DNA of 39,999 nt, from NCBI GenBank assembly GCA_945831585.1, contig CAMACY010000010.1:1-39999 (forward strand), given 5' to 3'. Source of the DNA: an uncultured bacterium. GTDB taxonomy: Bacteria; Verrucomicrobiota; Verrucomicrobiia; Verrucomicrobiales; Akkermansiaceae. The position numbers and the translations under genes are program-made. A model generated the notes under the pieces. The model was not told the origin of the DNA, did no database searches, and saw only the letters and a program-made list of their open reading frames with translations. Shown here in pieces: positions 989 to 17,500 of the stretch. Each line of letters opens with the position of its first letter. The stretch's first letter is position 1.

Positions 989-3907
989 CTAACCGCGCGC
1001 ATTGTAGCTGCTGCGGGTGCAGATAGAGGTGTTGCTCAGCGTGGTGGGGGCGATTTCCGCCACGATTTGCCCGAAGCCGTCGCTGAGGCGTTGGCTGAGC
1101 AGGGTGGTGCCATCCCAGATGCTCTCGCTCAGGCAGCCTTCCTGCATCCCGTAGACGTAGCGCTGCTCGCGTTGCGCGCTGCCGTGGCGTCGCGCGAGGC
1201 TGCCGTCGGCGTGCTGCTCGGTGATGAGGGTCGCGCCGGCGGGGGTGGTGACGCAGGTGGTGAGGCCATCGGCGCTGTAGGTGGTCGTGGTGGTTCGCCC
1301 GAGTTCGTCTGTGTGGGCGATGGGGCGCCCGAGCAGGTCGTATTGTGTGGTGCGGATGCTGCTCAGGGGGCCGATGTCACGCCGCTCGCTCAGGATGCGC
1401 CCGGCGGCATCGTGGGTGTAGCTGGTGATGGTTTCGGGGGTGATGCAGCGCTCGCCTTCGTAGACGGCGGCTCGGGTGCTTTCGATGAGTTGCCGCGCGC
1501 TGTCGTAGCTGTAGGTGGTGGTGATGCCGTTTTCATCGGTTTCGCGCAGCGGGGCGCCGGTGCAGTTCAGGGTGCGGCTGCTGTTGCGCCCGTTGTCGCG
1601 CTGCGTGCCGATACGGCGGTTTTGGGTGTCGTAGCTGTGGGTGGCGCCGGAAAGCAGCGCCCAGGTTGCGCCATCGCTCAGCAAGAGGTATTCTTCTTCG
1701 CGCAGGGTGTTGCCCGCCGCGCCGATGTATGCTACCCGGCGGCGGCTTTGCCCCGGCACAGCGGCTCCCGCTACCTGCGTTTCGCGAATCAGGCTGTAGA
1801 GCGCACCGTGCTGCGCGGTGGCGGCATAGCTGTAGTGCGTTTGCACGCCATCCTCGCCTTGCGTGAGGCGCAGCCGCCCGCGCGCTAAGGGGTTTTCGGC
1901 GCTCTCGCTCCAGCGCTCGGTGATGCTCAGGCGTTCCTGCGCGGCTCCCGTGGCGCTGCGGCGGATCTCCTCGCGCCGCACGCCGTCTTGCTCGCTGCGC
2001 AGGTAGCGCTCGCGACGAAGGAGCTGCATGAGCTCTCCGCCTGACGGGCTCAACCACACCGCCTGCGCGGAGGGCGTGTCGCGGTAGGAACTGCCCTCGC
2101 CTTCGCTGTAGTAGAAGTAGGTGATGAGGGTGCCTGCGTCCCCGTGCCAGGGCTCGCTTTGGCGCGTCAACCGCCCTGTGCTGTCGTAGGCATACTCGGT
2201 GCGGTGCCCGCCGGGTGCGACCTGCGCGGTGCAGTTGCCCACGGCATCGTATTCAAACTGTGTGGTGCGGGCGGCATCCGAGCCGTAGCCCTCCACCCGC
2301 GTCAGCACCAGAGGTCCCATGGGCGATTCCTGAAACAGCTCACAGACGCAGGATGCTACCGCGCTGCCGCGGCGCTGTGTGGTGATACGCTGCCGCACGG
2401 CATAAGCGCCTGTGTCGGCGCTCTCCGGCGTGCTCAGGCTGCGTTCTGTCACGACGGCCTCTTCCCCCGTGCCTTCGCTCATGCACCAGGCGCCACCGTC
2501 CCCTTGCGACCAGGCGCAGCGGTATTCGGGGTGCTCGGGGCTCTGTTCGCTGATGCTCAGCTCGCCTGCCGCGTAGCGCACCACAAAGCTCTTGTAGGCG
2601 CTGCCGGGCTCGGGGATGGCGTAGCCATCGGCATCGTGTCCCGTGATGCGGGCGGGCGTGTAGAGGCTGATGGTGTAGCCCTCGCTCGTGATGTTGCCGA
2701 TGTCAGCCAGCCCATCCCAGGGGCTTTCGATTTGGCGGATGTAGCGCCCATCGGCGCTGCGACGCACGCTCAGCAGCTCGGGAATGGGCGAGAGGCACAC
2801 CCCGTTGGGTGCGGTGTAGGCCTGCAGCTCCCCGGTGGCGGCATCGAACTGCCACTGCGCCTCGCTGCCGTCCTGCCAGCGCAGCGCCACAACGCGTTCA
2901 TCCTCATCGCGCAGGAGCGTGGCCACGCCCCCGCCGGCGGAGTCGACCCCGATGGGAGCCAAGACTCCGTCGCTGTAGTAGCGCAGGGCGATGACGCGCT
3001 GCCCGAATTGCAGCTCGAGCCGGGCGCCCGGCACGATACCGCCGGCCGGGAGCCTCAGCTGCGCGGCCAGCGGGTGCTCGAATGCCAAGGCTGCCGGCGA
3101 GGCCAGCTCCGCGCCGGCCGTGGCGGCGCGAAGCTGCAGGTGCCCGGTGAGCAGGGCGCCCAAGCCGCGCAGGGTGCCCATGTTGCAGCTCCAATACGCG
3201 TAATCATCGCCCAGCCCGCGCTGCACGGAGCTGCCCGCCGATGAGCTGTCGCTCAGCACGCTGCCGGACGGCGAGTTGTTGCCCTCCTCCTCTCCGTCGC
3301 CCTCGGCCTGAGCTGCCGCAGCGGGGAAACCGCCCTCCAGGCTGCAAGTATCGCCCGCACAATCGCACCTCTCGGGCATGGGCACACCGCCGGGTTCCAG
3401 CGCCACCACGCGGTAGTCGTACTCAAAAATGATTTGGTTGTTGTTGGGGTTATCCATGGCGATGTTGGTATAGCGGAAGAGCAGCGTGTGCGCCCCGGAA
3501 CTGAGCAGGCAGTTCACCCGGCGCGTCCACACGCTGTGCCCGCCATGCGAACCGGTCGGTTTCTCGGCCATGGGGGTCATGTCGATGATACGTTTTCCAT
3601 CGAGCAAGACCTCGCCCCAATCTTCCACGCGGTAGCGCAGCTCCAGCTTGGCGAGCAGCTCTTTGAGCTCGCCCGCCTCATCCGTTGTCCACGGCACCGA
3701 GAAGCTGCGCTCCACCTCCCACGACGTTCCCTGGGTGGGGGGCGCTTGGTTGCGGTTTTCATGACCATCGGCTAGAACATCGCCCGGGGCAATGGGGGTG
3801 GCGCTTGTTGCGGTGCGGGCGGCGACAGGGGTGGGTGTGTACCACTTGCTGTAGGGGGGAATTGGGGGTGTTGCTTGCATCACCTGCAAGCCTACAACAA
3901 CCCCCAC
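989..3907 (-). CDS. RHS/YD-repeat protein, N-terminal portion ending at an in-frame TAG
   Basis: Large repeat protein of the RHS family, whose YD repeats form a shell around a C-terminal effector; members act in contact-dependent competition or as cell-surface proteins. The first roughly 180 residues are a non-repeat domain, followed by a Cys cluster (ERCDCAGDTC) and an acidic/serine linker. From about residue 300 come degenerate YD repeats (YDAVGNCTAQVAPGG, YDSTGRLTRQSEP, YDLLGRPIAHTDELG). No signal peptide is visible. The start is a GTG with GAGG five bases upstream; an ATG ten codons in (3880) is the alternative. The product stops at TAG 989-991, but the frame continues beyond it, so this is probably the 5' part of a longer gene. 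It is divergent from the fur-suf operon. Confidence 0.8.
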   Translation of the reverse strand: MGVVVGLQVMQATPPIPPYSKWYTPTPVAARTATSATPIAPGDVLADGHENRNQAPPTQGTSWEVERSFSVPWTTDEAGELKELLAKLELRYRVEDWGEVLLDGKRIIDMTPMAEKPTGSHGGHSVWTRRVNCLLSSGAHTLLFRYTNIAMDNPNNNQIIFEYDYRVVALEPGGVPMPERCDCAGDTCSLEGGFPAAAAQAEGDGEEEGNNSPSGSVLSDSSSAGSSVQRGLGDDYAYWSCNMGTLRGLGALLTGHLQLRAATAGAELASPAALAFEHPLAAQLRLPAGGIVPGARLELQFGQRVIALRYYSDGVLAPIGVDSAGGGVATLLRDEDERVVALRWQDGSEAQWQFDAATGELQAYTAPNGVCLSPIPELLSVRRSADGRYIRQIESPWDGLADIGNITSEGYTISLYTPARITGHDADGYAIPEPGSAYKSFVVRYAAGELSISEQSPEHPEYRCAWSQGDGGAWCMSEGTGEEAVVTERSLSTPESADTGAYAVRQRITTQRRGSAVASCVCELFQESPMGPLVLTRVEGYGSDAARTTQFEYDAVGNCTAQVAPGGHRTEYAYDSTGRLTRQSEPWHGDAGTLITYFYYSEGEGSSYRDTPSAQAVWLSPSGGELMQLLRRERYLRSEQDGVRREEIRRSATGAAQERLSITERWSESAENPLARGRLRLTQGEDGVQTHYSYAATAQHGALYSLIRETQVAGAAVPGQSRRRVAYIGAAGNTLREEEYLLLSDGATWALLSGATHSYDTQNRRIGTQRDNGRNSSRTLNCTGAPLRETDENGITTTYSYDSARQLIESTRAAVYEGERCITPETITSYTHDAAGRILSERRDIGPLSSIRTTQYDLLGRPIAHTDELGRTTTTTYSADGLTTCVTTPAGATLITEQHADGSLARRHGSAQREQRYVYGMQEGCLSESIWDGTTLLSQRLSDGFGQIVAEIAPTTLSNTSICTRSSYNARG

Positions 3908-4158: not shown

Positions 4159-4172
4159 TTAGGCTTGCCTAA
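4159..4172. promoter_or_regulatory. 14-bp palindromic candidate operator before fur-suf
   Basis: TTAGGCTTGCCTAA is a perfect inverted repeat (TTAGGC/GCCTAA, 2-bp centre) 34 bases upstream of the chosen fur ATG. The TTAGG...CCTAA arms resemble metal-regulator boxes of the DtxR/MntR type more than a classic Fur box. A weak promoter (TTGCGC at 4143 with TGCCTA at 4166) would place it over the -10 region. The role is inferred from symmetry and position only. Confidence 0.45.
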
Positions 4173-4206
4173 TACGTGCAAAAAATCCATACTCCTGCAA
4201 GAGGGT

Positions 4207-4659
4207 ATGAGCGAAGAGCAGGCATCAGCGACTCAAAACACGGCGTCCCGCATGGTGCGCTGCGCGGGGGTGCGCATGACTCGCCAGCGACGCGCTGTTC
4301 TGGAGGCGATTCTCGAATCCGATGACCACCCCACGGCCGCGCAGATTTTTGAGCGTGCTTCCGCGCGAATCAGCGGGCTCTCGCTCGCCACGGTCTACAA
4401 CTGCTTGGAAACCATGAGCGCTGCGGGCATCATCAACAAGCTGCATCTCCACAACGGCACCTCGCGCTACTGCCCGAACCTCTTTCCCCATGCCCATTTT
4501 ACGGATGTCAACAGCAACTGCATCTACGACATCCACCTCAAACCCGGGCGGAGCCTACAGGATGTTTTTGAGTTGCCCGAGGGGGCGACCATCACGGGAA
4601 TGACCATCTGTCTGCGCGGCAGTTTCCCGACCACGAGTCACGAAACGGAAAAGCAATGA
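4207..4659 (+). CDS. Fur-family transcriptional regulator heading the suf operon
   Basis: Ferric-uptake-regulator family protein of 150 residues: an N-terminal winged helix with [12 protein letters not shown] and [12 protein letters not shown], then a C-terminal dimerisation/metal domain with GTSRYCPN and PHAHF. The PHAHF stretch matches the HHHxH-type metal ligands of Fur/PerR/Zur. The CxxC zinc pairs of many Fur proteins are absent; only NSNC carries a Cys there, so the structural zinc site is probably missing. The ATG at 4207 has AGAGGG just before it at tight spacing; an in-frame TTG at 4165 inside the palindrome is less likely. The stop overlaps the sufC ATG (ATGA), so the regulator is translationally coupled to Fe-S assembly genes. 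Which metal or cluster it senses is unknown. Confidence 0.85.
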
Positions 4660-5408
4660 GCCTGATTATCCGAGATTTACACGCCCGCGTCCGAGACGGC
4701 GCGACCATTCTCAACGGTATCAATTTGGAAATCCCCAAGGGGGAGGTGCACGCCGTCATGGGTCCCAACGGCTCGGGCAAATCCACCCTCTCCAAAGTGC
4801 TCTGTGGTCACCCCGACTACGAGGTGACCGGCGGCAGTGCCGAGCTGGACGGACAGGATCTCTTCTCGCTCAGCGTCGATGAGCGCAGCCGCGCGGGGCT
4901 TTTTCTGGCCTTCCAGTACCCCGTAGAAGTGCCGGGGGTGAGCAACGCCAATTTCATGCGGGCGGCTTTGCAGGCGCGCCTGCCCAAGGGCGAGGAGCTC
5001 GACACCGTCTCTTTCTACAAGCAACTGCGCGGCAACATGAAAAAACTGGGCATGGATCCCAAGTTCACCGCCCGAGCCGTCAACGAAGGCTTCTCCGGCG
5101 GCGAGAAGAAGCGCAACGACATCCTGCAAATGATGATGCTGCAACCCTCTTACGCCATCTTGGATGAAACGGACAGCGGGCTGGATGTCGATGCCCTGCG
5201 CATTGTCTCCGACGGCGTGAACGCCATGCGCGCGCCTTTCCGCAGCTTCCTCGTCATCACGCACTACAAGCGGCTGCTGGACTATATCCGCCCCGATGTG
5301 GTGCACGTTCTCTACCAAGGGCGCATCGTCCGCAGCGCCGGGGCAGAGCTGGTCGACTACATCGAGGAGCACGGCTTCGACTTTGTCAAGAACGGGGAGG
5401 AGGATTGA
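4656..5408 (+). CDS. sufC: Fe-S cluster assembly ATPase SufC
   Basis: Cytoplasmic ABC-type ATPase of the SufBCD scaffold, which drives conformational change during Fe-S cluster assembly. The 250-residue length is typical. Walker A is GPNGSGKST (36-44), the signature FSGGEKKRN (146-154) has the E-K-K-R form usual for SufC, and Walker B is YAILDE (166-171) followed by [10 protein letters not shown]. Its ATG overlaps the fur stop codon, and its own stop lies six bases before the sufB ATG. Confidence 0.97.
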
Positions 5409-5413
5409 ATACG

Positions 5414-6814
5414 ATGGACGAGACCCCGTTCCGCATGGACACCCGCGGTGCCTTTGCCATGCCCGAGCAGCACCGCTACGACGCGGGCTACGGGCTGACG
5501 GAGGCGACCATCGACTACATCTGCGATGCCAAGGGCGAGCCCGACTGGCTGCGGCAATTCCGCAAAGATGCCCTGCGCCGTTTCCGCGAGATGCCCATGC
5601 CCACCCACTGGGCACCCGAGGGCATCCGTGGAGTCGATTTCGAGAAAATCCGCTACTACCTGGCGCACGGCACCGCGCCGCGCAAGAGCTGGGACGAAGT
5701 GCCCGAGGATGTCAAGCGCACCTTCGAGCGTTTGGGCGTTCCGGAGCAAGAGCGAGCCTTCTTGGCCGGGGTGGATGCCCAATACGACTCCGAGACCGCC
5801 TACAACAACATGCGCAGCGAGCTCTCCAAGCAGGGCGTCATCTTCGTGAACTCCACCGAAGGGCTGCGCGACCACGAGGCCATCTTCCGCCCCTGGTTCG
5901 GCAAGGTCATCCCCGTGGGCGACAACAAATTCTCCGCACTCAACCACGCGGCCTTTTCCGGCGGCTCCTTCATCTATGTACCCAAGGGCGTCAAGCTGCG
6001 CCAGCCGCTGCAAGCCTACTTCCGCATCAACTCCGAGGCCATGGGGCAGTTCGAGCGCACCCTCATCATCGCCGACGAGGGCGCAGAACTCATGTACATG
6101 GAGGGCTGCACCGCCCCGAAGTACGACAGCGCCACCCTGCACAGCGGTGTTGTAGAGCTCGTGGCTCTCAAAGGCGCCAAAATCCAATATGTCACCGTGC
6201 AGAACTGGGCAACCAATGTCTACAACCTCGTCATTCAGCGCGGTCTGGCGATGGAGGATGCTGAAATCCGCTGGATTGACTGCAATCTGGGCTCCGCCCT
6301 CACCATGAAATACCCGGCCGTCGTGCTGCAAGGGCGCCGCGCTCGCGGCGAGGTGGTCAGCATCTCGCTGGCGCACGACGGGCAGGACCAGGACACCGGC
6401 GCGCGCATGATCCACGCCGCACCCGACACCACGAGCAACATCGTGGCCAAGTCCATCTCCATCGGACAGGGGCGCGCGAGCTACCGGGGCGAAGTGAGCG
6501 TCCTCAAGGGCATGCAGGGCTGCAAGAACAACACCGAATGCGACGCTCTGCTCATCAACGCCGCCAGCCGCACCGATACCTACCCCGCCATCACCGTCAA
6601 CGGCAAGGCCTCTGCCGTGCAGCACGAAGCCTCTGTCTCGCAGGTCGATGAGGAGATGCTCTTCTACATGCAGCAACGCGGGCTGACCCGTGCGCAGGCC
6701 ATGAGCCTGGCCGTCAACGGCTTCATCAACGACCTGGTCAACGAGTTCCCCATGGAATACTCCGTGGAGCTGCGCCGCCTCATCGACCTGGAAATGGAAG
6801 ATTCCATCGGCTAA
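5414..6814 (+). CDS. sufB: Fe-S cluster assembly scaffold protein SufB
   Basis: Core scaffold of the SufBCD complex, on which nascent Fe-S clusters are built from sulfide delivered by a SufS-type desulfurase. The 466-residue beta-helix protein has the family signatures [31 protein letters not shown] and the Cys-bearing [13 protein letters not shown]; the last Cys matches the conserved SufB cysteine. A strong GGAGGAGGA (5396-5404) nine bases upstream favours the ATG at 5414 over an in-frame TTG at 5405. This is one of the few clear Shine-Dalgarno sites in the window. Confidence 0.97.
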
Positions 6815-6830
6815 TTTCCCCTGCACGATT

Positions 6831-7925
6831 ATGGATTTCCCCGACGAGCATCATCTCCGCCTCGCCCTCGAAACCGCCGAGGCACGCGCCCGACTTGCGG
6901 CCGCCGCCCTGCCCGACCGGCGCTGCGAGGACTGGCGCTTCGGCAAACCCCATCGCTACGCCGCCGAGCTGGCCGCGTTGCTGGAGGGCGCGTCCCAAAG
7001 CGGCGACATCCGCCTGCAAGCCCCGCGCGACTGTGCCGCGAACCTGAGTCCCGAAGAAGCCGACAGCGAGCTGCTGATGCGCAGCATCGGCAGCGACTAC
7101 CTGCTGGCGCGGCACCACGCGCACTTCGGGCAGGGTGTTTCCCTGCTGCTGGACGGTTGCTACGATGAGCCCATCGTCATCACCTACGAAACCGAGGGTC
7201 TGTTCCTGCCGAGCACCCTCATCATGGCCGCTCCCGGCACCAAGGCTCACCTGATCGAGCGCCACATCACCCGCGGCAGCGGCTGCACCTTCTGCGCGCG
7301 CTGCATCCACGCCTGCGAGGGAGCCGAGCTCTCCGTCGAGCTGCGGGAAGAGGGCAGCGGCAGCTCACGCACCCTGAACATCACCAACATCACGGCCATC
7401 AACGCACGCGTGCGCCATCTCAGCACCCACAGCGGGCACCGCTGGGCGCGCGAAGAGACCCTGGCCGAGCTGCTCAGTGCCCCGTCGGGGAGCCCGTCCG
7501 ATGTAGGGCTTTACTCCGCCAACCGCCTGAGCGGCGAGCAGGTGCTCGACCAGCACACGCGCCAAATCCACACCAACGGCGGCGCCGCCAGTGACTTACT
7601 CTACAAAAACGTCATCGACGACAAAGCGACCGCCGTCTTTGCCGGCAACATCTACGTGGCTCCCGGGGCGCACGCCACCGATGCCTACCAAGCCAACCGC
7701 AACATGCTGCTCAGCGAGCGCGCCACCGTACATTCGCTGCCGGGGCTGGAAATTCTGGCCGACCGTGTGCGCTGCTCGCACGGCAGCGCCAGCGCCCCCA
7801 TGGACAGCGAGCAGCTCCACTACCTGCTCTCGCGCGGCATCCCCCAACACGAAGCGCAAATGCTCGTGGCCGAGGGCTTTTTAGCGGATGTTCTCACCCG
7901 CTTCCGCAGTGCCGAGCAAGCATGA
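6831..7925 (+). CDS. sufD: Fe-S cluster assembly protein SufD
   Basis: Partner of SufB in the SufBCD scaffold; the SufB-SufD interface is where the cluster forms. At 364 residues it is shorter than the E. coli protein (about 420), mainly in the N-terminal part. The C-terminal beta-helix keeps LSGEQVLDQHTRQIHTNGGA and the conserved VRCSHG, whose His corresponds to the functional SufD histidine. The stop overlaps the next ATG (ATGA). No sufS, sufE or sufU follows, so the desulfurase must be encoded elsewhere. Confidence 0.95.
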   Translation: MDFPDEHHLRLALETAEARARLAAAALPDRRCEDWRFGKPHRYAAELAALLEGASQSGDIRLQAPRDCAANLSPEEADSELLMRSIGSDYLLARHHAHFGQGVSLLLDGCYDEPIVITYETEGLFLPSTLIMAAPGTKAHLIERHITRGSGCTFCARCIHACEGAELSVELREEGSGSSRTLNITNITAINARVRHLSTHSGHRWAREETLAELLSAPSGSPSDVGLYSANRLSGEQVLDQHTRQIHTNGGAASDLLYKNVIDDKATAVFAGNIYVAPGAHATDAYQANRNMLLSERATVHSLPGLEILADRVRCSHGSASAPMDSEQLHYLLSRGIPQHEAQMLVAEGFLADVLTRFRSAEQA

Positions 7926-8460: not shown

Positions 8461-9384
8461 ATGCAAACGACTCTCAAACTCCACGGATTAGTCGCCGCCA
8501 CGCACACCCCCATGAATGCCGACGGCAGCTGCAACCCCAACGCTGTTGAGGCTCAAGCGGCGTTCTTGGCCTCCCAGGGCATCAGCAAGGTGTTCATCAC
8601 CGGCTCCACGGGTGAATCGGCGCACATGCAGCTCACCGAGCGCAAGGAAAACATGGCTGCCTGGGGCGAAGCCGCCCGCAAGCACGGCATCGAATTCGTG
8701 GTGCACACCGGCGGCAACAGCGTGTACGACGGTCGTGAGCTCGCGGCTTACGCCGCGCAGTGCGGCGCTGCCGGCACCGCCAGCAACAGCCCCTGCTACT
8801 TCAAACCCGGCAGCGTGGAAGCCCTGGCCGACTGTGCCGCGTTCGAAGCCTCCGGCGCCCCGGAGCTTCCCTACTATTTCTACGACATTCCCGTGCTGAC
8901 GCATGTGGCGTTCAACCCCTGCAAAATCATTGACGCCATGGCCGCCCGCATCCCCAACTTCTGCGGCATCAAGTTCACCAACCCCGACCTCGCGCTCTAC
9001 ATGGACGCCCTCACCAAGGACGACGGCAAGTGGGACATTCCCTGGGGGGTGGATGAGTGGTTCCTCGGGGCACTGGCCACGGGAGCCAAAGGCGGCGTGG
9101 GCTCCTCGTTCAACTACGCCCCCAAGCTCTACCAAGACCTCATTGCCGCGTTCAACGCCGGAGACATCGCCACGGCGCGCCACCTGCAAAAACTCTCGGT
9201 GAGCATGATCAACATCATCGCCTCGCACGGCTACATGGGCTGCTGCAAGCAAATCATGGGCTGGTGGGGCGTCGACCTCGGTCCCGCGCGCCTCCCCATG
9301 GGCACCCCCGATGCCGCCACCGTCAAGCAGCTGCGCGATGAGCTGAGCGCCATCGGCTTCTTCGACTGGGCCATCAACAAATAA
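8461..9384 (+). CDS. nanA: N-acetylneuraminate lyase
   Basis: Cleaves N-acetylneuraminate to N-acetylmannosamine and pyruvate in the cytoplasm, the first step of sialic-acid use. It is a 307-residue TIM barrel of the DapA/NanA family with GSTGE (48-52), the catalytic Tyr of YYFYDIP (Tyr141) and the Schiff-base Lys of GIKFTN (Lys171). GVDEWFLGA after the Lys is typical of sialate lyases rather than dihydrodipicolinate synthases. There is no Shine-Dalgarno sequence. It is first in a five-gene run with the epimerase 14 bases downstream, which supports the sialate assignment. Confidence 0.95.
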   Translation: MQTTLKLHGLVAATHTPMNADGSCNPNAVEAQAAFLASQGISKVFITGSTGESAHMQLTERKENMAAWGEAARKHGIEFVVHTGGNSVYDGRELAAYAAQCGAAGTASNSPCYFKPGSVEALADCAAFEASGAPELPYYFYDIPVLTHVAFNPCKIIDAMAARIPNFCGIKFTNPDLALYMDALTKDDGKWDIPWGVDEWFLGALATGAKGGVGSSFNYAPKLYQDLIAAFNAGDIATARHLQKLSVSMINIIASHGYMGCCKQIMGWWGVDLGPARLPMGTPDAATVKQLRDELSAIGFFDWAINK

Positions 9385-9398
9385 TCCCCCGCTGCACC

Positions 9399-10595
9399 AT
9401 GGACACCCAAGCACTGGGGCAATTCTACAAAGAGCAGTTGCTCAACGATGTAGAGCCCTTTTGGTTCCCGCGCGCCATCGACCGCGAACACGGTGGTTTC
9501 TACCACTGCTTCGATGCCGACGGCACGCTGGTGGACAGCGACAAGAACGTCTGGGCTCAGGGGCGCATGGCGTGGATGCTGCTCACCTGCTACAACAGCA
9601 TCGAGCAGCGCCCCTACTGGAAAGAAGCCGCCGAAAGCGCCCTCAAATTCCTGGAGGAAAAATGCGTTGACCCGAGCGACGGCCGCATGTACTTCCACGT
9701 CACGGCCGACGGCACCCCCATCCGCAAGCGCCGCTACGCCTACAGCGAATGCTTTGCCGCCATCGCCTGGGCTGCCCACTACGGCGCCACCGGCGACCCG
9801 CACAGCGCCGAGCGCGCGCGCCACTGGCTCGATGTCTACACCGACATCTTCTTCACCCCCGGCAAGATGCAGCCCAAGACCACGGGCAAGCGCCCGAGCG
9901 AAAACCTCGGCTGCCGCATGATCATGATTGTCACCTGCCAAGAGATTCGCCGCTATTTGGGCGACCCCGACGGCAGCCTGACCGCGTGGATCGACCGCTG
10001 CATCCGCGATCTGCAAACCCTCTTCATCCACGACGAACTGCGCGCCGTGGCCGAGAATGTCGCCCCGGACGGCAGCATCATCGACCACTTCGACGAACGC
10101 ACACAGAATCCCGGACACGCCATCGAGGGGGCTTGGTTCATCCTGGCCGAGGCACGCGAGCGAGGCGGCGACCAGAGCGAGCTCATCGCCACCGCCCGCA
10201 AGATGATCGACTGGTCGCTCGAACGCGGCTGGGACAAGCAGTACGGCGGTCTGCTCTACTACACCGACATTTACGGCAAGCCCGTGCAGGAATACTGGCA
10301 CAACATGAAGTTCTGGTGGCCGCACGACGAAGCCCTCATCGGCACCTGCCTCGCCTACGTCATGACGGGGGATGAGCACTACGCCGAGTGGCACGAGCGC
10401 ATCCGCGACTGGTCTTTCACCCACTTCCACGACAAGGAGCACGGGGACTGGTACGGCTATCTGGAGCGCGACGGAAGCCCCGCCAACGGGCTGAAAGGCA
10501 CCATGTGGAAATCCTTCTTCCACCACCCCCGCGCCCTCTGGTTCTGCGCCCACTTCCTCGGCGCCATTCCCGCCCCCCAAACGCAACATTCCTGA
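9399..10595 (+). CDS. N-acylglucosamine 2-epimerase (GlcNAc/ManNAc interconversion)
   Basis: AGE/RnBP-family (alpha/alpha)6-barrel enzyme of 398 residues that interconverts N-acetylmannosamine and N-acetylglucosamine. Visible family features are the His of NPGHAIEGAW (His240), the His of WWPHDEA (His309) and the pair in KSFFHHPRAL (His375/376), which match the conserved His residues of the porcine and cyanobacterial enzymes. Directly behind nanA it gives the Bacteroides-style route sialate to ManNAc to GlcNAc, without the ManNAc kinase/NanE route of E. coli. Related cellobiose epimerases share the fold, but context favours AGE. Confidence 0.92.
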   Translation: MDTQALGQFYKEQLLNDVEPFWFPRAIDREHGGFYHCFDADGTLVDSDKNVWAQGRMAWMLLTCYNSIEQRPYWKEAAESALKFLEEKCVDPSDGRMYFHVTADGTPIRKRRYAYSECFAAIAWAAHYGATGDPHSAERARHWLDVYTDIFFTPGKMQPKTTGKRPSENLGCRMIMIVTCQEIRRYLGDPDGSLTAWIDRCIRDLQTLFIHDELRAVAENVAPDGSIIDHFDERTQNPGHAIEGAWFILAEARERGGDQSELIATARKMIDWSLERGWDKQYGGLLYYTDIYGKPVQEYWHNMKFWWPHDEALIGTCLAYVMTGDEHYAEWHERIRDWSFTHFHDKEHGDWYGYLERDGSPANGLKGTMWKSFFHHPRALWFCAHFLGAIPAPQTQHS

Positions 10596-10619: not shown

Positions 10620-11798
10620 ATGATTATCGGCATTCTCAACTCCGGCGGCGACTGCCCGGGCATCAACGCAGTCATCGAAGGCTACGTCTCCGCCGCCTAC
10701 CGCCGCGGCTGGCGCGTTATCGGCTTCCACGACGGCTTTGAAGGGCTGCTGCCCGTCGCCGGCGGGCGGCGCTACGAAACGCTCACGCCCGACAAGACGC
10801 ACCAAATCCGCTCCTTCGGCGGCACCATCCTCGGCACCACCAGCACGGGCAACTTCAAAATCCACATCAACAAGCTCGGGCGCGCGTCCATCGACACGGA
10901 CATGCTGGCCAAGGCCAAGAAAACCATCACGGCTCTGGGGCTGGAAGCCCTCGCCGTAGTGGGTGGTTCCGGCTCCGCGCGGACAGCCAGCCTGCTGGCT
11001 GATGAGGGCTTGCCCGTCATCTCCATCCCCAAGACCATCAACAACGACCTCTGCGAAGCCTCCGACTACACCTTCGGTTTCCAGAGCGCCGTCACCACCG
11101 TCACGGAATCCATCGACCGCATCCGCACCACGGCCAACTCCCACCAGCGCATGATGGTGGTCGAGGTCATGGGTGACCAGTCCGGCTGGATTGCCCTGCA
11201 CAGCGGCATCTCCACCGCAGCGGATGTCGTGCTCATCCCCGAAATCCCCTTCGACCTGCAAAACGTCGTCGAGTGCATCAAAGCTCGCAAGGCCACGGGG
11301 CAGCGCGAAATCATCGTCGTGGTCTGCGAAGGCGCTCGGCTCAATGGCGAACTCATCACCATCCGCAACAAAGACAAGGGCGAGGAGCGCCTCGGCGGCA
11401 TCGGCAATCGGCTCTCGCGCATGCTGCAAGAGCTCACCGGTATCGAAACGCGCTACTGCGTGCTGGGGCACACCCAGCGCGGCGGCTCCCCCTGCGCCTT
11501 CGACCGCATCACTGCCCTGCGCTTCGGGGTGGAGGCCGTTAAGCTCATCGAACGCCGCGAATACGGCAAGACCCTCGTCCTCAACGGACCGAATGTCAAC
11601 ACCGTCTCCATCGAAGAAGCCGTGCGCTCGCTGCGCCTCGTCCACCCCGACAGCCAACTCGTGCGCACGGCGCGCGACCTCGGCATCATCTTCGGCGATC
11701 GCAGCCCCGACCGACTCATGAGCGAGCGCGCGATGGACACCGCCGCCAAAGCCACCAAGAAGTGCCGCAAAAAGGCCTGTAAAACCGAGAGCGCATGA
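10620..11798 (+). CDS. phosphofructokinase-family paralog with altered catalytic residues
   Basis: A 392-residue PfkA-family protein, clearly homologous to the intact PFK two genes downstream. The GGD loop (NSGGDCPG), the sugar-phosphate residues in CVLGHTQRGGSP and the acidic VVVCEGA are kept. Residues for phosphoryl transfer are changed: GGDGS is GGSGS (Ser117), PKTIDND is PKTINND (Asn141 where PFKs have the catalytic-base Asp) and MGR is MGD (residues 184-186). In known PFKs these Asp residues bind Mg and activate the fructose-6-phosphate hydroxyl, so weak or no kinase activity is expected. It may be a regulatory subunit or bind sugar phosphates. A Lys/Ala-rich tail (KKCRKKACKTE) is added. 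The stop overlaps the next ATG. Confidence 0.85.
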   Translation: MIIGILNSGGDCPGINAVIEGYVSAAYRRGWRVIGFHDGFEGLLPVAGGRRYETLTPDKTHQIRSFGGTILGTTSTGNFKIHINKLGRASIDTDMLAKAKKTITALGLEALAVVGGSGSARTASLLADEGLPVISIPKTINNDLCEASDYTFGFQSAVTTVTESIDRIRTTANSHQRMMVVEVMGDQSGWIALHSGISTAADVVLIPEIPFDLQNVVECIKARKATGQREIIVVVCEGARLNGELITIRNKDKGEERLGGIGNRLSRMLQELTGIETRYCVLGHTQRGGSPCAFDRITALRFGVEAVKLIERREYGKTLVLNGPNVNTVSIEEAVRSLRLVHPDSQLVRTARDLGIIFGDRSPDRLMSERAMDTAAKATKKCRKKACKTESA

Positions 11799-12760
11799 AG
11801 TCCCCCCTGACCATCTTCGGTGCCTGCATCGGGCTGATGGCTGCCCTGCTCGGCAGCTCCTGCTCCTCGACGGAGGGTGTTCTCCCCGAGGAGACAACGC
11901 CGAGCTATGTCTGCGTGGAAACCAACAGCGGGCGCATTCTCTACGCGCAGAACGCAACGGAAAAGCGCCCCATCGGCATGTTAACCAATCTCGCGACCGC
12001 CTGCGTCGCCATGGATTGGATCAAGTCCGCCGGGGTGGAGCTGGATCGGCAGATTCCCGTGCCGGCGGCGGCGATACAGTGGCCTAAGACCAACCTGCTC
12101 AAGCTGCGTCCGGGGGATACCATGACCATTCGTGATGCGCTGTACTCTACCCTCATGTGGGACGACAGCGCCAGCGCCATGACCCTCGCCTATGCCTGCG
12201 GCGCCTACCTGAATCCCCATGATCCGGCGGCGGCCTTTGTCAACCAGATGAACCGCCTTGCGGCGCGTCTGCTGATGAGCTCCACCTACTTCAAGGGGAC
12301 CAGTGGTGCCGTGGTTTCGCAATCCACGGCGCGCGATCTCGCCCTGCTCGGCATGTATGCCATCGGCAACGCCGACCTGTTGGCCATCACCAACCAACCG
12401 GGAACCACGGTCACCATCAACAGCGCCACCGGGAGCCGCACACAGCTTGTGCGCAACAACAACCGCCTGCTCGCCCTCTCGGAAACGGTCGACGGGCTCA
12501 AGGCGGGGCAGTCACGCAGCGCCGGGGCCTGCCTCATGGCCACGGCACGCCGTGTCTCCGTCAAGCGCATCAACCCCGCAACCGGCAAGCAAGCCACCTA
12601 TGGTCAGCGCCTGCTCGTGGTCATGCTCGGTATGCCCAGCTCCAAAACACGCTACACCACCGCCGCCCACTTCCTGCGCGACGGCTGGGATGTTTGGGAA
12701 CAATGGCTGCCCACCAACGACTACCAAGACAAAACCAAATTCATCATTCTTCCTAACTAA
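11795..12760 (+). CDS. D-Ala-D-Ala carboxypeptidase-fold lipoprotein lacking the catalytic motifs
   Basis: A 321-residue peptidase S11 (penicillin-binding DacA-type) fold with an N-terminal lipoprotein-like signal, LLGSSC with Cys23 as likely lipidation site. It aligns well with DacA proteins, but all three active-site motifs are lost. SxxK in the RPIASLTK context reads RPIGMLTN (Met62 and Asn65 replace Ser and Lys), SGN reads WDD (122-124) and KTG reads KAG (236-238). It should be unable to form an acyl-enzyme and is probably an envelope binding or scaffold protein. The ATG overlaps the stop of the altered PFK paralog, and the intact PFK begins 14 bases after its stop. Pairing with glycolytic genes is unexpected. 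Confidence 0.85.
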   Translation: MKSPLTIFGACIGLMAALLGSSCSSTEGVLPEETTPSYVCVETNSGRILYAQNATEKRPIGMLTNLATACVAMDWIKSAGVELDRQIPVPAAAIQWPKTNLLKLRPGDTMTIRDALYSTLMWDDSASAMTLAYACGAYLNPHDPAAAFVNQMNRLAARLLMSSTYFKGTSGAVVSQSTARDLALLGMYAIGNADLLAITNQPGTTVTINSATGSRTQLVRNNNRLLALSETVDGLKAGQSRSAGACLMATARRVSVKRINPATGKQATYGQRLLVVMLGMPSSKTRYTTAAHFLRDGWDVWEQWLPTNDYQDKTKFIILPN

Positions 12761-12774
12761 CAACTCTTCCTCCC

Positions 12775-13863
12775 ATGAACATCGGTATTTTGAACGCCGG
12801 CGGCGATTGTCCCGGATTGAATGCGGTGATTGAAGGCGCCGTCTGCGCCGCCTCTGCCCGCGGCTGGATTGTCTACGGCTTTTACGATGGCTTCGAGGGG
12901 CTGCTCTCGACTCCCGAAAACGAGCGCTGGCGCATCCTCACCCCCGAGAACTGCCACAACATCCGCTCCGAGGGCGGCACCATTCTCGGCACGGTCAACA
13001 AGGGCAATTTCACCGTCAAGAGCGGCGTCGGCGGTCGCATGCAGATCGCGCAAGAGGTGCTCGATCGCAGCAAGGCCACCGTCGAACGCCTGCAACTCGA
13101 AGCGCTCATCGTCGTGGGCGGCGACGGCTCGCAAACCATCGGGCTCGAACTGCGCCAAATCGGCCTGCCCATCGTGGGCGTGCCCAAGACCATCGACAAT
13201 GACTTGGGCGCCACCGACTACACCTTCGGTTTCTGGACCGCCGTGTCCATCGTCTCCCAGAACCTCGACCGGCTGCGCACCACGGCCTACTCGCACCAGC
13301 GCATGATGGTGGTGGAGGTCATGGGGCGCCACGCGGGCTGGATTGCCCTCTACGGCGGCATGGCCGGCGGCGCGGATGTCATTCTGCTGCCGGAAATCGA
13401 GTTCACCCTCGAAGATGTGGTGCGCAAGGTCGAGCTGCTCAAGGCGCTCGGTCAGCGCGAAATCCTCGTTGTCGTCAGCGAGGGCGCCAAGATTTCCGGC
13501 AAACTGCTCACGCTGGATGAGGAAACTAAGGGCGAGGTACGCCTCGGCGGCATTGCCAACTTCCTCTCCACCAAGCTGGAGACCATCACCGGCATCGAAA
13601 CGCGTTACTGCGTGCTGGGGCACACCCAGCGCGGCGGTGCCCCCATCCCCTTCGACCGTGTCCTCGGTGTGCGCTGCGGCGCCAAGGCCATCGACCTCAT
13701 CGAGGAGGGCAAATTCGGCGAAACCGTGGCTCTGAGCGGTATCGACATGGTATCCATGCCCATCGAAGAAGCCGTGCGCACTCTGCATTTGGTGGACAGC
13801 AAGAGCCAAATCGTCGAATCGGCCAAGGAAATCGGCATCTCCTTCGGCGACTCCGAGAGCTAA
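12775..13863 (+). CDS. 6-phosphofructokinase (catalytically intact copy)
   Basis: A 362-residue cytoplasmic enzyme that phosphorylates fructose-6-phosphate to fructose-1,6-bisphosphate. It has NAGGDCPG, VVGGDGS (113-119, Asp117), PKTIDND (137-143, Asp141), EVMGR, VVVSEGA and CVLGHTQRGGAP. In this family Gly after GGD favours ATP as donor while Asp there marks pyrophosphate enzymes; here it is GGDGS, so ATP is likelier, although the Lys of PKTIDND is shared with PPi-type enzymes. It closely resembles the altered copy upstream with the same motif spacing, so the two arose by duplication. It ends the nan operon before a strong terminator. Confidence 0.92.
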   Translation: MNIGILNAGGDCPGLNAVIEGAVCAASARGWIVYGFYDGFEGLLSTPENERWRILTPENCHNIRSEGGTILGTVNKGNFTVKSGVGGRMQIAQEVLDRSKATVERLQLEALIVVGGDGSQTIGLELRQIGLPIVGVPKTIDNDLGATDYTFGFWTAVSIVSQNLDRLRTTAYSHQRMMVVEVMGRHAGWIALYGGMAGGADVILLPEIEFTLEDVVRKVELLKALGQREILVVVSEGAKISGKLLTLDEETKGEVRLGGIANFLSTKLETITGIETRYCVLGHTQRGGAPIPFDRVLGVRCGAKAIDLIEEGKFGETVALSGIDMVSMPIEEAVRTLHLVDSKSQIVESAKEIGISFGDSES

Positions 13864-14029: not shown

Positions 14030-17000
14030 TCAGAACTCGTAGTGCAGACCGACGTTACCGGTGACACTGCCGCGCTTGGCACCGACGCGACCATAGCCAC
14101 CCGCCACGAGGTCCAGCTGCTCGGAGAGGGGGATGGTGGCATTCAGCCCGAACTGACCGTAGAAGCAGTCACGCTTCGAGGATTCGACGCTGAACGGCAG
14201 CCCCTCGGCACCCACAAAGCAGTTGCGCGCATCGGGGCTGCGGTCGCTGAGCTCGAACACCGCCGAGGCCGAGGCCGTCAGCGTGCCGCGCTCACGCTGC
14301 GGCAGGGCGCGGAACTGCATGGTGTAGCGCGCACCGAGCCCGAGCTGTACGAGATTGAGGTTGTCGTACTGCGTGTTGAGGCTTGCCTCGCCCGCACCGT
14401 GCTCGCGCAGGTTGTTGATGTCGATGTAGGCGTAGTTGACATCGAAGAAGGGCGTGGCAACGGCGTTCTGGGATTCCAACACGAAATCCCGGCTCAGCTC
14501 GTAGCCCACATTGATGGAATGCGCCGTCATGCTACCCTGCGCTGTCGCGGCAAAATCGTGCCCCGGAGCGCTGACCGTGATTCCGCGCCGTGTGTCGAAA
14601 TCGAAGATACCGACACCGACCGACAGCTTGTGGTCATACGAGCCCGTACGCACGGCGCTGTAGAGGTCGATGAAGTAGGTATCCGTATCGAACTTCGTTT
14701 CCGAAGTGCGGGCGATGCCGTTCTCATAGCCGAAGGCCAGCCCGAGGGTCGCGTGGCAGCAGAGCTGGCGATCCATCCCCAGCAACAAGCCATTCCAGGT
14801 GCGGGAGTACTTGCCCATGGCAGCCTGGCTGCTGATGCTGTCGTAACCTCCCGTGTAGACCATCCACACATCGTTGCGGCGCGCGGGCATCTCCCAACCG
14901 CCCTTGCCCATCGTGCAGGGTGTGGGGGCGGTGATGCGCGAACGCAGGGTATCCAGATGGTGGCTGGTCGCATCGAGCACGGCATGCTGGGCAATGGTGT
15001 TGCTCACGCCCGACGCACTCTGCAAACCGGCGACGGCGGCGCCGCTGCTGCGGGTGTAGTCAAAGGCATCCAACAGGCGATCCAGCTGATTGTCCGAAGC
15101 CGCCAGCGTCCCCTCCGTGTGGCTCACCTCGCCCGCCAGAGATTGCAGCACCGACGCCACCGCACGCTGGTTCGGCGTCTGCCCCGCGATGCGGTAGTTA
15201 TCGCTGAACACGAGCGAGGCTCCCTGCCCCGGCACCGTGGCCACATACACGTTGTGATTGGTGAGCAAGCGCTGGTAGGTACCATTCTCCACCTCGGCCA
15301 CATCGTACAGGGCATCGGGGTTGAATCCGCTCAGCACCGTTCCGTTGACAATCGGCGTGGTCGTGCCGTCAAGCAACAGCGACTCGTTTTGCAGAGCATC
15401 CGCTGCACGCTGCGCGACATCGGGGTTGAAGGTCACAAACACGCGAGCGCCGGCGGCATCGAGCGTGCCCGAGAGATGGAGCACATCCGCCGTCACACTG
15501 CCATCGGCACCGATGGCCACATCCTCCCACAGCAGCGTGTGCGGCGAGAGCGCCAGACTGTTGCCCTGCGTCACCGTCCCGGCCACCGCGTGGTCAAAGC
15601 TCAGGATGCTGCCGATGTTGCGGTAGCCCGTGCGCGTATTGTCATCGTATGTATAGGAACCGTTCACCAAGAATCGGTTGAGCACAGCGTTCGCCGCGCG
15701 CTCGCCCTCATCCTCGGTGGTATCAATCGAGCCGATTTGCACGGGACCGGCGGCGTAGGAAGCCGCCGTGGTGCTAAAGTTCGAGTCCTTGAGCACCGTC
15801 ACGGCATTCGCGTGCAGCCCCGTACCGTTGAGCTGCACCTCGGCTCCGGCGTCATCCATGGCCACAATCGTGCCCTGATAGCCGGTGGCATCCGCGCTCA
15901 AGCTCAGCATGCTGCCCGAGAGCACGTTGATGACGCTCTGCGTGTCCTGCGAAGCGATGGGCGCGTTCAGCACCCCACCCGCATACAAATCCAACTCGCT
16001 GTCCGTGTCGAACATAATGACCGGCTGCGTGCCACCGGGAGCTGCCACGGTGCTCAGCACGGCGTTGGTCAGCTTCACCTCATGCTGCAGCACGATGTCC
16101 CCGCCCGTAGCCTGGATATCCGTAGCTCCCGTCAGATTCTCCACCTGCACATTGTCCAGCACCATGCCGGCCGCCACCGTCGCGCCCGAGCCCAGCACCA
16201 CATCGCTCGTACCGTTCGAGGTGACAGTCGAATCACCGGTGACGGTAGCCAGCTTGCCGGTCAACCCCGCAATCGTCACCGATTGATCCGAATGCACCGT
16301 ACTGTTGCTAATAAGGGTGTAGGCTCCGGGGTCAAGGCTGTTGTCCGTACTCAGGACAAGGGACTCCTGTGCTTGCAGCGTGGCGCCGATGAGGATGTTG
16401 CTCCCGCTCAGCGTCAAGGCACCCTGCTCGGCAACCACGGCGGCGGAAATCGTGTTCACACCCGAGAGTTCCAGATTGCCCTGGGTCGCCACCAGCTTGC
16501 CCGTCACGCTGTTCGTGCCGCTGATGCTCGTCGACTGCGCGGCGAAGCTCGTCTCGGTATCGGCCTCGAAGGAATTGTCACCGCTGATGCGGATGTCCCC
16601 CTGGGCAGCGCTCAGCGAAACATCCCCAAAGCTATTGTCCGCACCAAGACCGGAGGAGCTGATGCGGATATCGCCCTGGGCAGCCGTCAGTGTCGCGCCG
16701 TTATCCATCGTATTGTCGCCGGTCAGCACCAAATCACCGGTGGTCGCAGTCAGAGCCGAGGCGGCGCCATCCACGGTCGTGGCATTACCGTTGTTGGCAA
16801 AGCTCGTGGTCGTGACCGTACCGTTGATGGTCACGGCGGCCGCATCAAGCGTCACAGCACCGCCCGCCAGCGAGCTGCCGGCTCCCACGGAAAGTCCCAG
16901 CGTGCCGCTGCTCAACGCGCTCGTTTCCGAGCCGTCCGCGTCCACCGTCACGCTCGTGCCCGTGCCGCTGATGCTCAGCGTGCCGCCGTCAAGTTGAATC

Positions 17001-17500
17001 TGCCCGTCAACGGTCAGCTCGGCAGCCGCCTCGACCGTCATGGTGGCAGCGCCCGTCCCGGCCGCGCCCAGGTTCCCCGTCACCAGGAAGGTGCCGGCAT
17101 GGGTCACCAGGATGGTACCCCCCGCATTCGTCAGCACGTTGCCATGGTAGCTTTGTTCGGCAGGGGTCGCCCCGCTCACATCGCCCAGCGTCACGCTCTG
17201 CAGAGCCGTAACCGAGCCGTCGATGGTGTCGGAGCCCGTGGTCACCGTGCCCGTGGCAGTGAGCGAGGTGCCCGCCGCTCCGGTACCGGTCAGCGAACCG
17301 AGCAATTCGGCAGGTGTCGCCGTCACACCGCTTAGGGTGGCGGTCTCTACCCCGGTGTAACTATTGGCATCGGTGGTATTGGTGACAGTCACCGTTGCCT
17401 GCTCCACGGGAACGGCAAAGGCGGTATAGGCCGAAGCAGCGACGGTCACAACAGCAGCCAGCAGCGCGCGGCGCAGCGGCATGGGTAAATGTGGTCTCAT
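14030..17500 (-). CDS. autotransporter with C-terminal outer-membrane beta-barrel
   Basis: A 1156-residue type V secreted protein. The N-terminus carries a signal peptide (RRALLAAVVTVAASAYTAFA). The passenger is Thr/Gly/Ser/Asp-rich with short repeats typical of a beta-helix (AAQGDIRIS, ATQGNLELSG, AEQGALTLSG). A linker leads to a beta-barrel of about 280 residues starting near WMVYTGGYDS, with the conserved barrel pattern (GLLLGMDRQ, YFIDLYSAVRTG) and the terminal aromatic residue of outer-membrane proteins (GLHYEF). The substrate or adhesion partner cannot be read from the sequence. The start chosen is the first ATG; there is no Shine-Dalgarno sequence and no convincing promoter was found. 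Confidence 0.9.
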   Translation of the reverse strand: MRPHLPMPLRRALLAAVVTVAASAYTAFAVPVEQATVTVTNTTDANSYTGVETATLSGVTATPAELLGSLTGTGAAGTSLTATGTVTTGSDTIDGSVTALQSVTLGDVSGATPAEQSYHGNVLTNAGGTILVTHAGTFLVTGNLGAAGTGAATMTVEAAAELTVDGQIQLDGGTLSISGTGTSVTVDADGSETSALSSGTLGLSVGAGSSLAGGAVTLDAAAVTINGTVTTTSFANNGNATTVDGAASALTATTGDLVLTGDNTMDNGATLTAAQGDIRISSSGLGADNSFGDVSLSAAQGDIRISGDNSFEADTETSFAAQSTSISGTNSVTGKLVATQGNLELSGVNTISAAVVAEQGALTLSGSNILIGATLQAQESLVLSTDNSLDPGAYTLISNSTVHSDQSVTIAGLTGKLATVTGDSTVTSNGTSDVVLGSGATVAAGMVLDNVQVENLTGATDIQATGGDIVLQHEVKLTNAVLSTVAAPGGTQPVIMFDTDSELDLYAGGVLNAPIASQDTQSVINVLSGSMLSLSADATGYQGTIVAMDDAGAEVQLNGTGLHANAVTVLKDSNFSTTAASYAAGPVQIGSIDTTEDEGERAANAVLNRFLVNGSYTYDDNTRTGYRNIGSILSFDHAVAGTVTQGNSLALSPHTLLWEDVAIGADGSVTADVLHLSGTLDAAGARVFVTFNPDVAQRAADALQNESLLLDGTTTPIVNGTVLSGFNPDALYDVAEVENGTYQRLLTNHNVYVATVPGQGASLVFSDNYRIAGQTPNQRAVASVLQSLAGEVSHTEGTLAASDNQLDRLLDAFDYTRSSGAAVAGLQSASGVSNTIAQHAVLDATSHHLDTLRSRITAPTPCTMGKGGWEMPARRNDVWMVYTGGYDSISSQAAMGKYSRTWNGLLLGMDRQLCCHATLGLAFGYENGIARTSETKFDTDTYFIDLYSAVRTGSYDHKLSVGVGIFDFDTRRGITVSAPGHDFAATAQGSMTAHSINVGYELSRDFVLESQNAVATPFFDVNYAYIDINNLREHGAGEASLNTQYDNLNLVQLGLGARYTMQFRALPQRERGTLTASASAVFELSDRSPDARNCFVGAEGLPFSVESSKRDCFYGQFGLNATIPLSEQLDLVAGGYGRVGAKRGSVTGNVGLHYEF

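Follow-up and report, generated by a model that had tools for sequence, protein, structure and literature searches.

A phosphofructokinase paralog without catalytic residues, conserved in a sialic-acid gene cluster of Akkermansia, as a candidate regulatory subunit of the adjacent enzyme

Background

The catalytic Asp127 and the F6P site are highly conserved through the whole PFK-A family of phosphofructokinases, whether ATP-, ADP- or PPi-dependent (PMC11609450). A mechanism based on D127, which is essential, is common to the enzymes of all three donor types, and the donors themselves are associated with distinct signatures, GGDGSxxG for ATP, GGDGSxxI for ADP and GG(D/E)D for PPi (PMC11609450). 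Some members of this family have turned from catalysis to regulation. The plant PFP is composed of catalytic beta and regulatory alpha subunits (PMC6920184), and the C-terminal half of the animal and fungal PFKs has lost its ATP pocket, its F6P pocket having become the effector site for fructose 2,6-bisphosphate (PMC12203962). A similar principle is known in trypanosomes for AdoMetDC and deoxyhypusine synthase, where a dead paralog, or prozyme, regulates or activates its active sister by hetero-oligomerisation (PMC5201418). Among the papers found, regulation of a PFK by a dead paralog is described in eukaryotes only (plants, fungi and animals), and the open-licence literature searched yielded no dead bacterial PFK and no PFK paralog of Akkermansia.

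The locus and its gene cluster

The window, i.e. the whole stretch of 39,999 nucleotides that was analysed, belongs to the genome of an Akkermansia species (1.92 Mb, 97% complete). It harbors two PFK-A genes that share 56% identity (Table 1), the first of which, hereafter pseudo-PFK, had been singled out in the original prediction for three motif changes relative to the intact copy, GGSGS for GGDGS, PKTINND for PKTIDND and MGD for MGR (EVMGD/EVMGR in full). All three are confirmed by the alignment. A third PFK of the same genome is encoded elsewhere and is of the PPi type (GGNDS), with TIDND and MGR intact. Other open reading frames of the window include a putative autotransporter-like protein of 1156 aa with a repetitive passenger region close to the PFK cluster (14030-17500, minus strand), a 972-aa frame with putative RHS/YD-repeat-like sequence (989-3907, minus strand), and three frames that by eye look like SufC, SufB and SufD of Fe-S cluster assembly, with a putative Fur-like regulator ahead of them at 4165-4659 (4165-7925 in all).

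Table 1. Coordinates in the window of the pseudo-PFK gene, its altered and retained sites and the neighbouring genes
Feature	Coordinates	Strand	Description	Evidence
nanA	8461..9384	+	N-acetylneuraminate lyase family protein; opens the conserved cluster	
nanE	9399..10595	+	N-acylglucosamine 2-epimerase (nanE-II/RnBP type); ends 24 bases before pseudo-PFK; position constant in all pseudo-PFK loci	
pseudo-PFK	10620..11798	+	PFK-A paralog without catalytic residues, 392 aa, ATG start	ORF, alignment, PF00365 match, orthologs, AlphaFold model
T76 codon	10845..10847	+	E. coli position 73; donor-side Lys of active relatives replaced by Thr in 56/56 orthologs	ortholog alignment
S117 codon	10968..10970	+	D103 equivalent in GGDGS; N/S/G/D in orthologs	alignment
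N141 codon	11040..11042	+	Position of the catalytic base (D127); all 56 orthologs have Asn	alignment
C145 codon	11052..11054	+	Insertion of one residue past the catalytic loop; fixed in all 56 orthologs, absent from the 80 active relatives	
H175-Q176-R177	11142..11150	+	Contains the R162 equivalent; H and R retained in 56/56	alignment
D186 codon	11175..11177	+	R171 equivalent in MGR; Asp 53, Asn 3	alignment
C-terminal tail	11700..11795	+	Final 32 residues, mostly basic; intact PFK without tail	alignment, model
S11 lipoprotein	11795..12760	+	D,D-peptidase-like, between both PFK genes; 4-base overlap with the pseudo-PFK gene; own catalytic motifs lost	
Intact PFK	12775..13863	+	PFK-A, 362 aa; GGDGSQTI, PKTIDND, EVMGR; presumed catalytic partner	

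The gene order nanA-nanE-pseudoPFK-S11-PFK, on one strand, is found at every pseudo-PFK locus with enough flanking sequence, with median gaps over 56 loci of 21 nt between nanE and pseudo-PFK, -4 nt (an overlap) between pseudo-PFK and S11, and 12 nt between S11 and PFK. This spacing suggests that the cluster is co-transcribed. The intact PFK lies beside the pseudo-PFK in all carrier genomes except G088, where the match is at a contig edge. In A. glycaniphila and L093 the cluster reads nanA-nanE-S11-PFK, with no paralog, nanE-S11-PFK is seen in L104, and A. muciniphila retains S11-PFK, an old pair in the order, with nanA and nanE not adjoining. The pseudo-PFK is therefore located exactly between nanE and S11 of a cluster that exists without it. 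NanA and NanE-II serve the degradation of sialic acid, an established pathway that passes via GlcNAc and glucosamine phosphates and delivers F6P, the substrate of PFK. Two types of sialic-acid breakdown pathway are described (PMC5583593).

The lipoprotein encoded between the two PFK genes is D,D-carboxypeptidase-like, and its three catalytic motifs SxxK, SxN and KTG are all lost in those pseudo-PFK-bearing species that were checked. The A. muciniphila group retains the Ser and has Gln in place of the Lys, and several other Verrucomicrobiota possess all three motifs. Across the order, this peptidase-like gene, dead in the pseudo-PFK clade, is linked to PFK.

Loss of catalytic residues and retention of the sugar-phosphate pocket

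The comparison comprised 56 distinct paralogs and 80 active relatives, namely 54 intact partners, 10 PFKs from the A. muciniphila/glycaniphila group, where the gene is single-copy, and 16 from other Verrucomicrobiota as the outgroup, taken from the Akkermansia loci and from 20 fetched regions, with E. coli PFK-1 as the numbering ruler. In all 56 paralogs an Asn replaces the catalytic base D127, which is conserved in 80/80 active relatives. At position 171, where the active relatives have Arg (80/80), 53 paralogs carry Asp and three carry Asn, and position 73 is Thr in 56/56 against Lys in 76/80. Position 103 is more variable in the paralogs (Asn in 31, Ser in 16, Gly in 4 and Asp in 5), while all 80 active relatives have Asp. 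The proposal of three active-site substitutions thus holds across orthologs for D127 and R171, the GGDGS change being variable with D kept in five, and has to be extended by the loss of K73. Because these five D103-retaining paralogs already carry D127N, K73T and R171D/N, the loss of D103 is probably a later step. Further new residues fixed near the site, besides K73T and the inserted C145, are an Ala at position 106 and a Ser at position 173.

The sugar-phosphate side presents the opposite picture. T125, D129, M169, G170, E222, H249 and R252 are unchanged in 56/56 paralogs, as are H160, R162 and R243, which belong to the neighbour-subunit side; the roles of all these residues are those established for E. 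coli PFK-1, in which R162 reaches the F6P site of the neighbouring subunit. Among 123 columns invariant in the 80 active relatives, the paralog retains 100, and the 23 that are altered include three of the three catalytic columns (chance of 3/3, 0.006) and none of the ten sugar columns (catalytic versus sugar, Fisher p 0.0035). Judged by the residues that mark an active PFK-A, the pseudo-PFKs lack Asp127 and Arg171 throughout (Asn in 56/56; Asp or Asn in 56/56), whereas the F6P-site residues checked are all present, on the own and on the neighbour side (10/10 in 56/56). The selective pattern that had been proposed, with the transfer residues lost and the sugar-phosphate pocket kept, is consequently seen in all 56 orthologs, and the ortholog check suggested at the time finds the catalytic base intact in none of them. 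Moreover, no pseudo-PFK displays a donor signature, the corresponding stretch reading GGNGSART, GGSGSART, GGDGSAKT, GGGGSAKT or GGDGSAVT. Given the known roles of D127 and R171, we infer that catalytic activity has been lost. For 58 of the 76 Akkermansia species, it is therefore probably a mistake to annotate the pseudo-PFK as 6-phosphofructokinase and to build metabolic models on that annotation.

The intact PFK contains GGDGSQTIG (13117-13143), and GGDGSQTI is present in 54/54 species of the clade; the motif reads GGDGSQST in the A. muciniphila group and GGDG[ST]LTT in the outgroup. Since GGDGSxxI is the ADP-PFK-A signature (PMC11609450), the phosphoryl donor of the active subunit may be ADP, a lead only, as the scores against PRK14071, which models the cyanobacterial family, fall under its cut-off.

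Family, fold and selection

The pseudo-PFK matches PF00365 over its full length (E 2.2e-93, profile positions 2-277 of 277), and this is its sole domain match. The AlphaFold model has a mean pLDDT of 86.5 and a pTM of 0.83, with only the tail (382-392) below 50, and its best PDB matches are the bacterial PFKs 3pfk (TM 0.94) and 1pfk_A (TM 0.93, both by target length). Over the 330 species pairs in which dS is unsaturated, the pseudo-PFK has a median dN/dS of 0.15 and the intact PFK one of 0.10, the amino-acid-changing sites of the former evolving about 1.5 times faster. Purifying selection and the match of the model together indicate a maintained protein that should fold as a PFK, and the fixed catalytic loss, combined with purifying selection elsewhere, is as expected of a prozyme-like regulatory pseudoenzyme. 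The 56 distinct orthologs exclude a sequencing or assembly artefact. The C-terminal tail, absent from the intact PFKs, ranges from 9 to 38 residues, is mostly lysine-rich in the orthologs and is modelled with low confidence.

The best NCBIfam matches of both PFK genes are TIGR02483 and NF002872, but neither protein reaches the cut-off of TIGR02483 or that of PRK14071. Profile scores rule out membership of the PPi-PFK families; for TIGR02477, the PFP family, the pseudo-PFK reaches 78.9 bits against a cut-off of 588. The resemblance to plant PFP-alpha put forward in the original prediction therefore survives as a good analogy and not as family membership.

Distribution and age of the duplication

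The pattern PKT[IV]NND occurs exactly once per genome in 58 of 76 Akkermansia genomes. At the DNA level, a search of 388 genomes drawn from the phylum for P-x-T-[IV]-N-N-D, a pattern blind to other D127 substitutions, gave matches in Akkermansia only, apart from a single PDTINND that is taken as chance. The 18 Akkermansia genomes without the pattern consist of 17 of A. muciniphila/glycaniphila type and G034 (76% complete). All 17 harbor an E. coli-type PfkA of 320 residues (71-100% identity; e.g. L119:1770-2732 in the A. muciniphila group), which was found in 0/58 pseudo-PFK genomes, and neither gene was seen in G034. The 17 species with a PFK at the locus and no pseudo-PFK are exactly the PfkA carriers. 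However, both states track one deep split in the genus, so that this mutual exclusion counts as about one event and not 75, and may be a coincidence. The genomes of the pseudo-PFK clade are small (about 1.7-2.8 Mb).

In the tree, the paralogs branch outside a group formed by the intact and the A. muciniphila-group PFKs (support 96/90), a placement in which long branches meet, and the AU test fails to reject the topology with a later duplication (p 0.116). Three fixed columns favour an older duplication and none a younger one.

Possible functions

In bacterial PFK tetramers, the F6P site is assembled from two subunits. The retention of both the pseudo-PFK's own and its lent F6P residues, with the transfer machinery lost, suggests a regulatory subunit, and we consider it moderately probable that the pseudo-PFK is a non-catalytic, F6P-binding component of mixed tetramers in which the active PFK encoded next to it also takes part. 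In such a tetramer, H160, R162 and R243 of the pseudo-PFK would complete the F6P site of the active subunit, and the pseudo-PFK's own site, completed in turn by the active subunit, would act as a non-turnover sensor of F6P, FBP or a related sugar phosphate through which the active PFK would be regulated. Hetero-oligomerisation, F6P binding and regulation are all predictions at this stage. The mixed tetramer already envisaged in the original prediction gains indirect support from the tight spacing and constant order of the genes, from the presence of both genes wherever no contig edge interrupts the locus, and from the neighbour-subunit residues, although these alone are no proof of mixing, as they are equally expected in an F6P-binding homotetramer. 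Moreover, bacterial paralogs of homomers often remain separate homomers (PMC7480870).

The same residues are what a free sugar-phosphate sensor would need, a homotetramer that would bind F6P or FBP without turnover and whose target, in place of PFK, would be a regulator, the nan genes or the S11 lipoprotein: all F6P-pocket residues checked are retained on both sides of the interface, the protein ends in its own, mostly basic tail, and the gene sits in a sialic-acid cluster that feeds F6P. We regard this as less likely, since PF00365 is accompanied by no DNA-binding or signalling domain, the active PFK is always present alongside, and the tail varies in length and is almost missing in some orthologs. 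Purifying selection and the residues newly fixed near the site (K73T, Ala 106, C145, Ser 173) would also be expected if the PFK activity had been exchanged for another sugar-phosphate reaction in the same pocket. The drift of position 103 among N, S, G and D looks instead like relaxed constraint on the donor side, and PFK-A enzymes of all three donor types use the D127 mechanism (PMC11609450), which makes a changed enzyme somewhat less likely still.

There is little to recommend a residual PFK that phosphorylates F6P slowly or from another donor, with Asn replacing the catalytic Asp. GGN occurs in PPi-type PFKs, including the third PFK of this genome, and the D103 change alone may be tolerable; on the other hand, this third PFK retains TIDND and MGR, none of the 80 active relatives has Asn 127 or a non-Arg 171, and D127 is essential and conserved in the family (PMC11609450). 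Finally, despite the faster evolution of its amino-acid-changing sites, a decaying duplicate without function is hardly credible, pseudogene decay being excluded by the dN/dS of about 0.15 and by conservation (frame open in 56/56 orthologs, 100/123 family-invariant positions retained, gene kept by 58 species despite their small genomes).

If the regulatory-subunit reading is extended, it is possible, although we advance this tentatively, that glycolysis in a large clade of gut Akkermansia depends on a two-gene PFK encoded in the sialic-acid cluster, with a catalytic, possibly ADP-dependent subunit and a dead F6P-sensing regulatory one. This PFK would replace the PfkA of other Akkermansia, and its dead subunit would correspond, in bacteria and as an unfused protein, to the half of eukaryotic PFK that is regulatory. 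With a group lacking the duplicate, and orthologs with and without the D103 loss, the intermediates are visible and would offer a test of how a homotetramer becomes a catalytic/regulatory pair.

Comparison with known systems

Both Akkermansia genes are of the general type of the short, 40-kDa PFK-A of group III / ADP-PFK-A (Synechocystis Sll1196, Sll0745), from which the pseudo-PFK differs by the absence of the catalytic Asp and of a donor signature. The alpha/beta heterotetramer of plant PFP is of the long, 60-kDa type, whereas the pseudo-PFK belongs to the short PFK-A proteins and has a partner of the GGDG type. With the C-terminal half of animal and fungal PFK it has in common a lost donor pocket and a retained sugar-phosphate pocket, and the C-terminal half of rabbit muscle PFK reads TVSNN and ETMGG in the alignment at the two catalytic motifs altered in the pseudo-PFK. 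However, the regulatory half of the animal and fungal enzymes is fused in a chain of about 780 residues, while the pseudo-PFK is a separate gene adjoining the catalytic one. The trypanosome prozymes are unrelated enzymes with unrelated folds, from eukaryotic parasites. The pseudo-PFK, seen here in Akkermansia only, would thus work like PFP-alpha or the C-terminal half of animal PFK and is a member of neither lineage; the principle of a regulatory dead paralog is known, and what is new is its bacterial lineage, its separate gene and its conservation across a whole clade.
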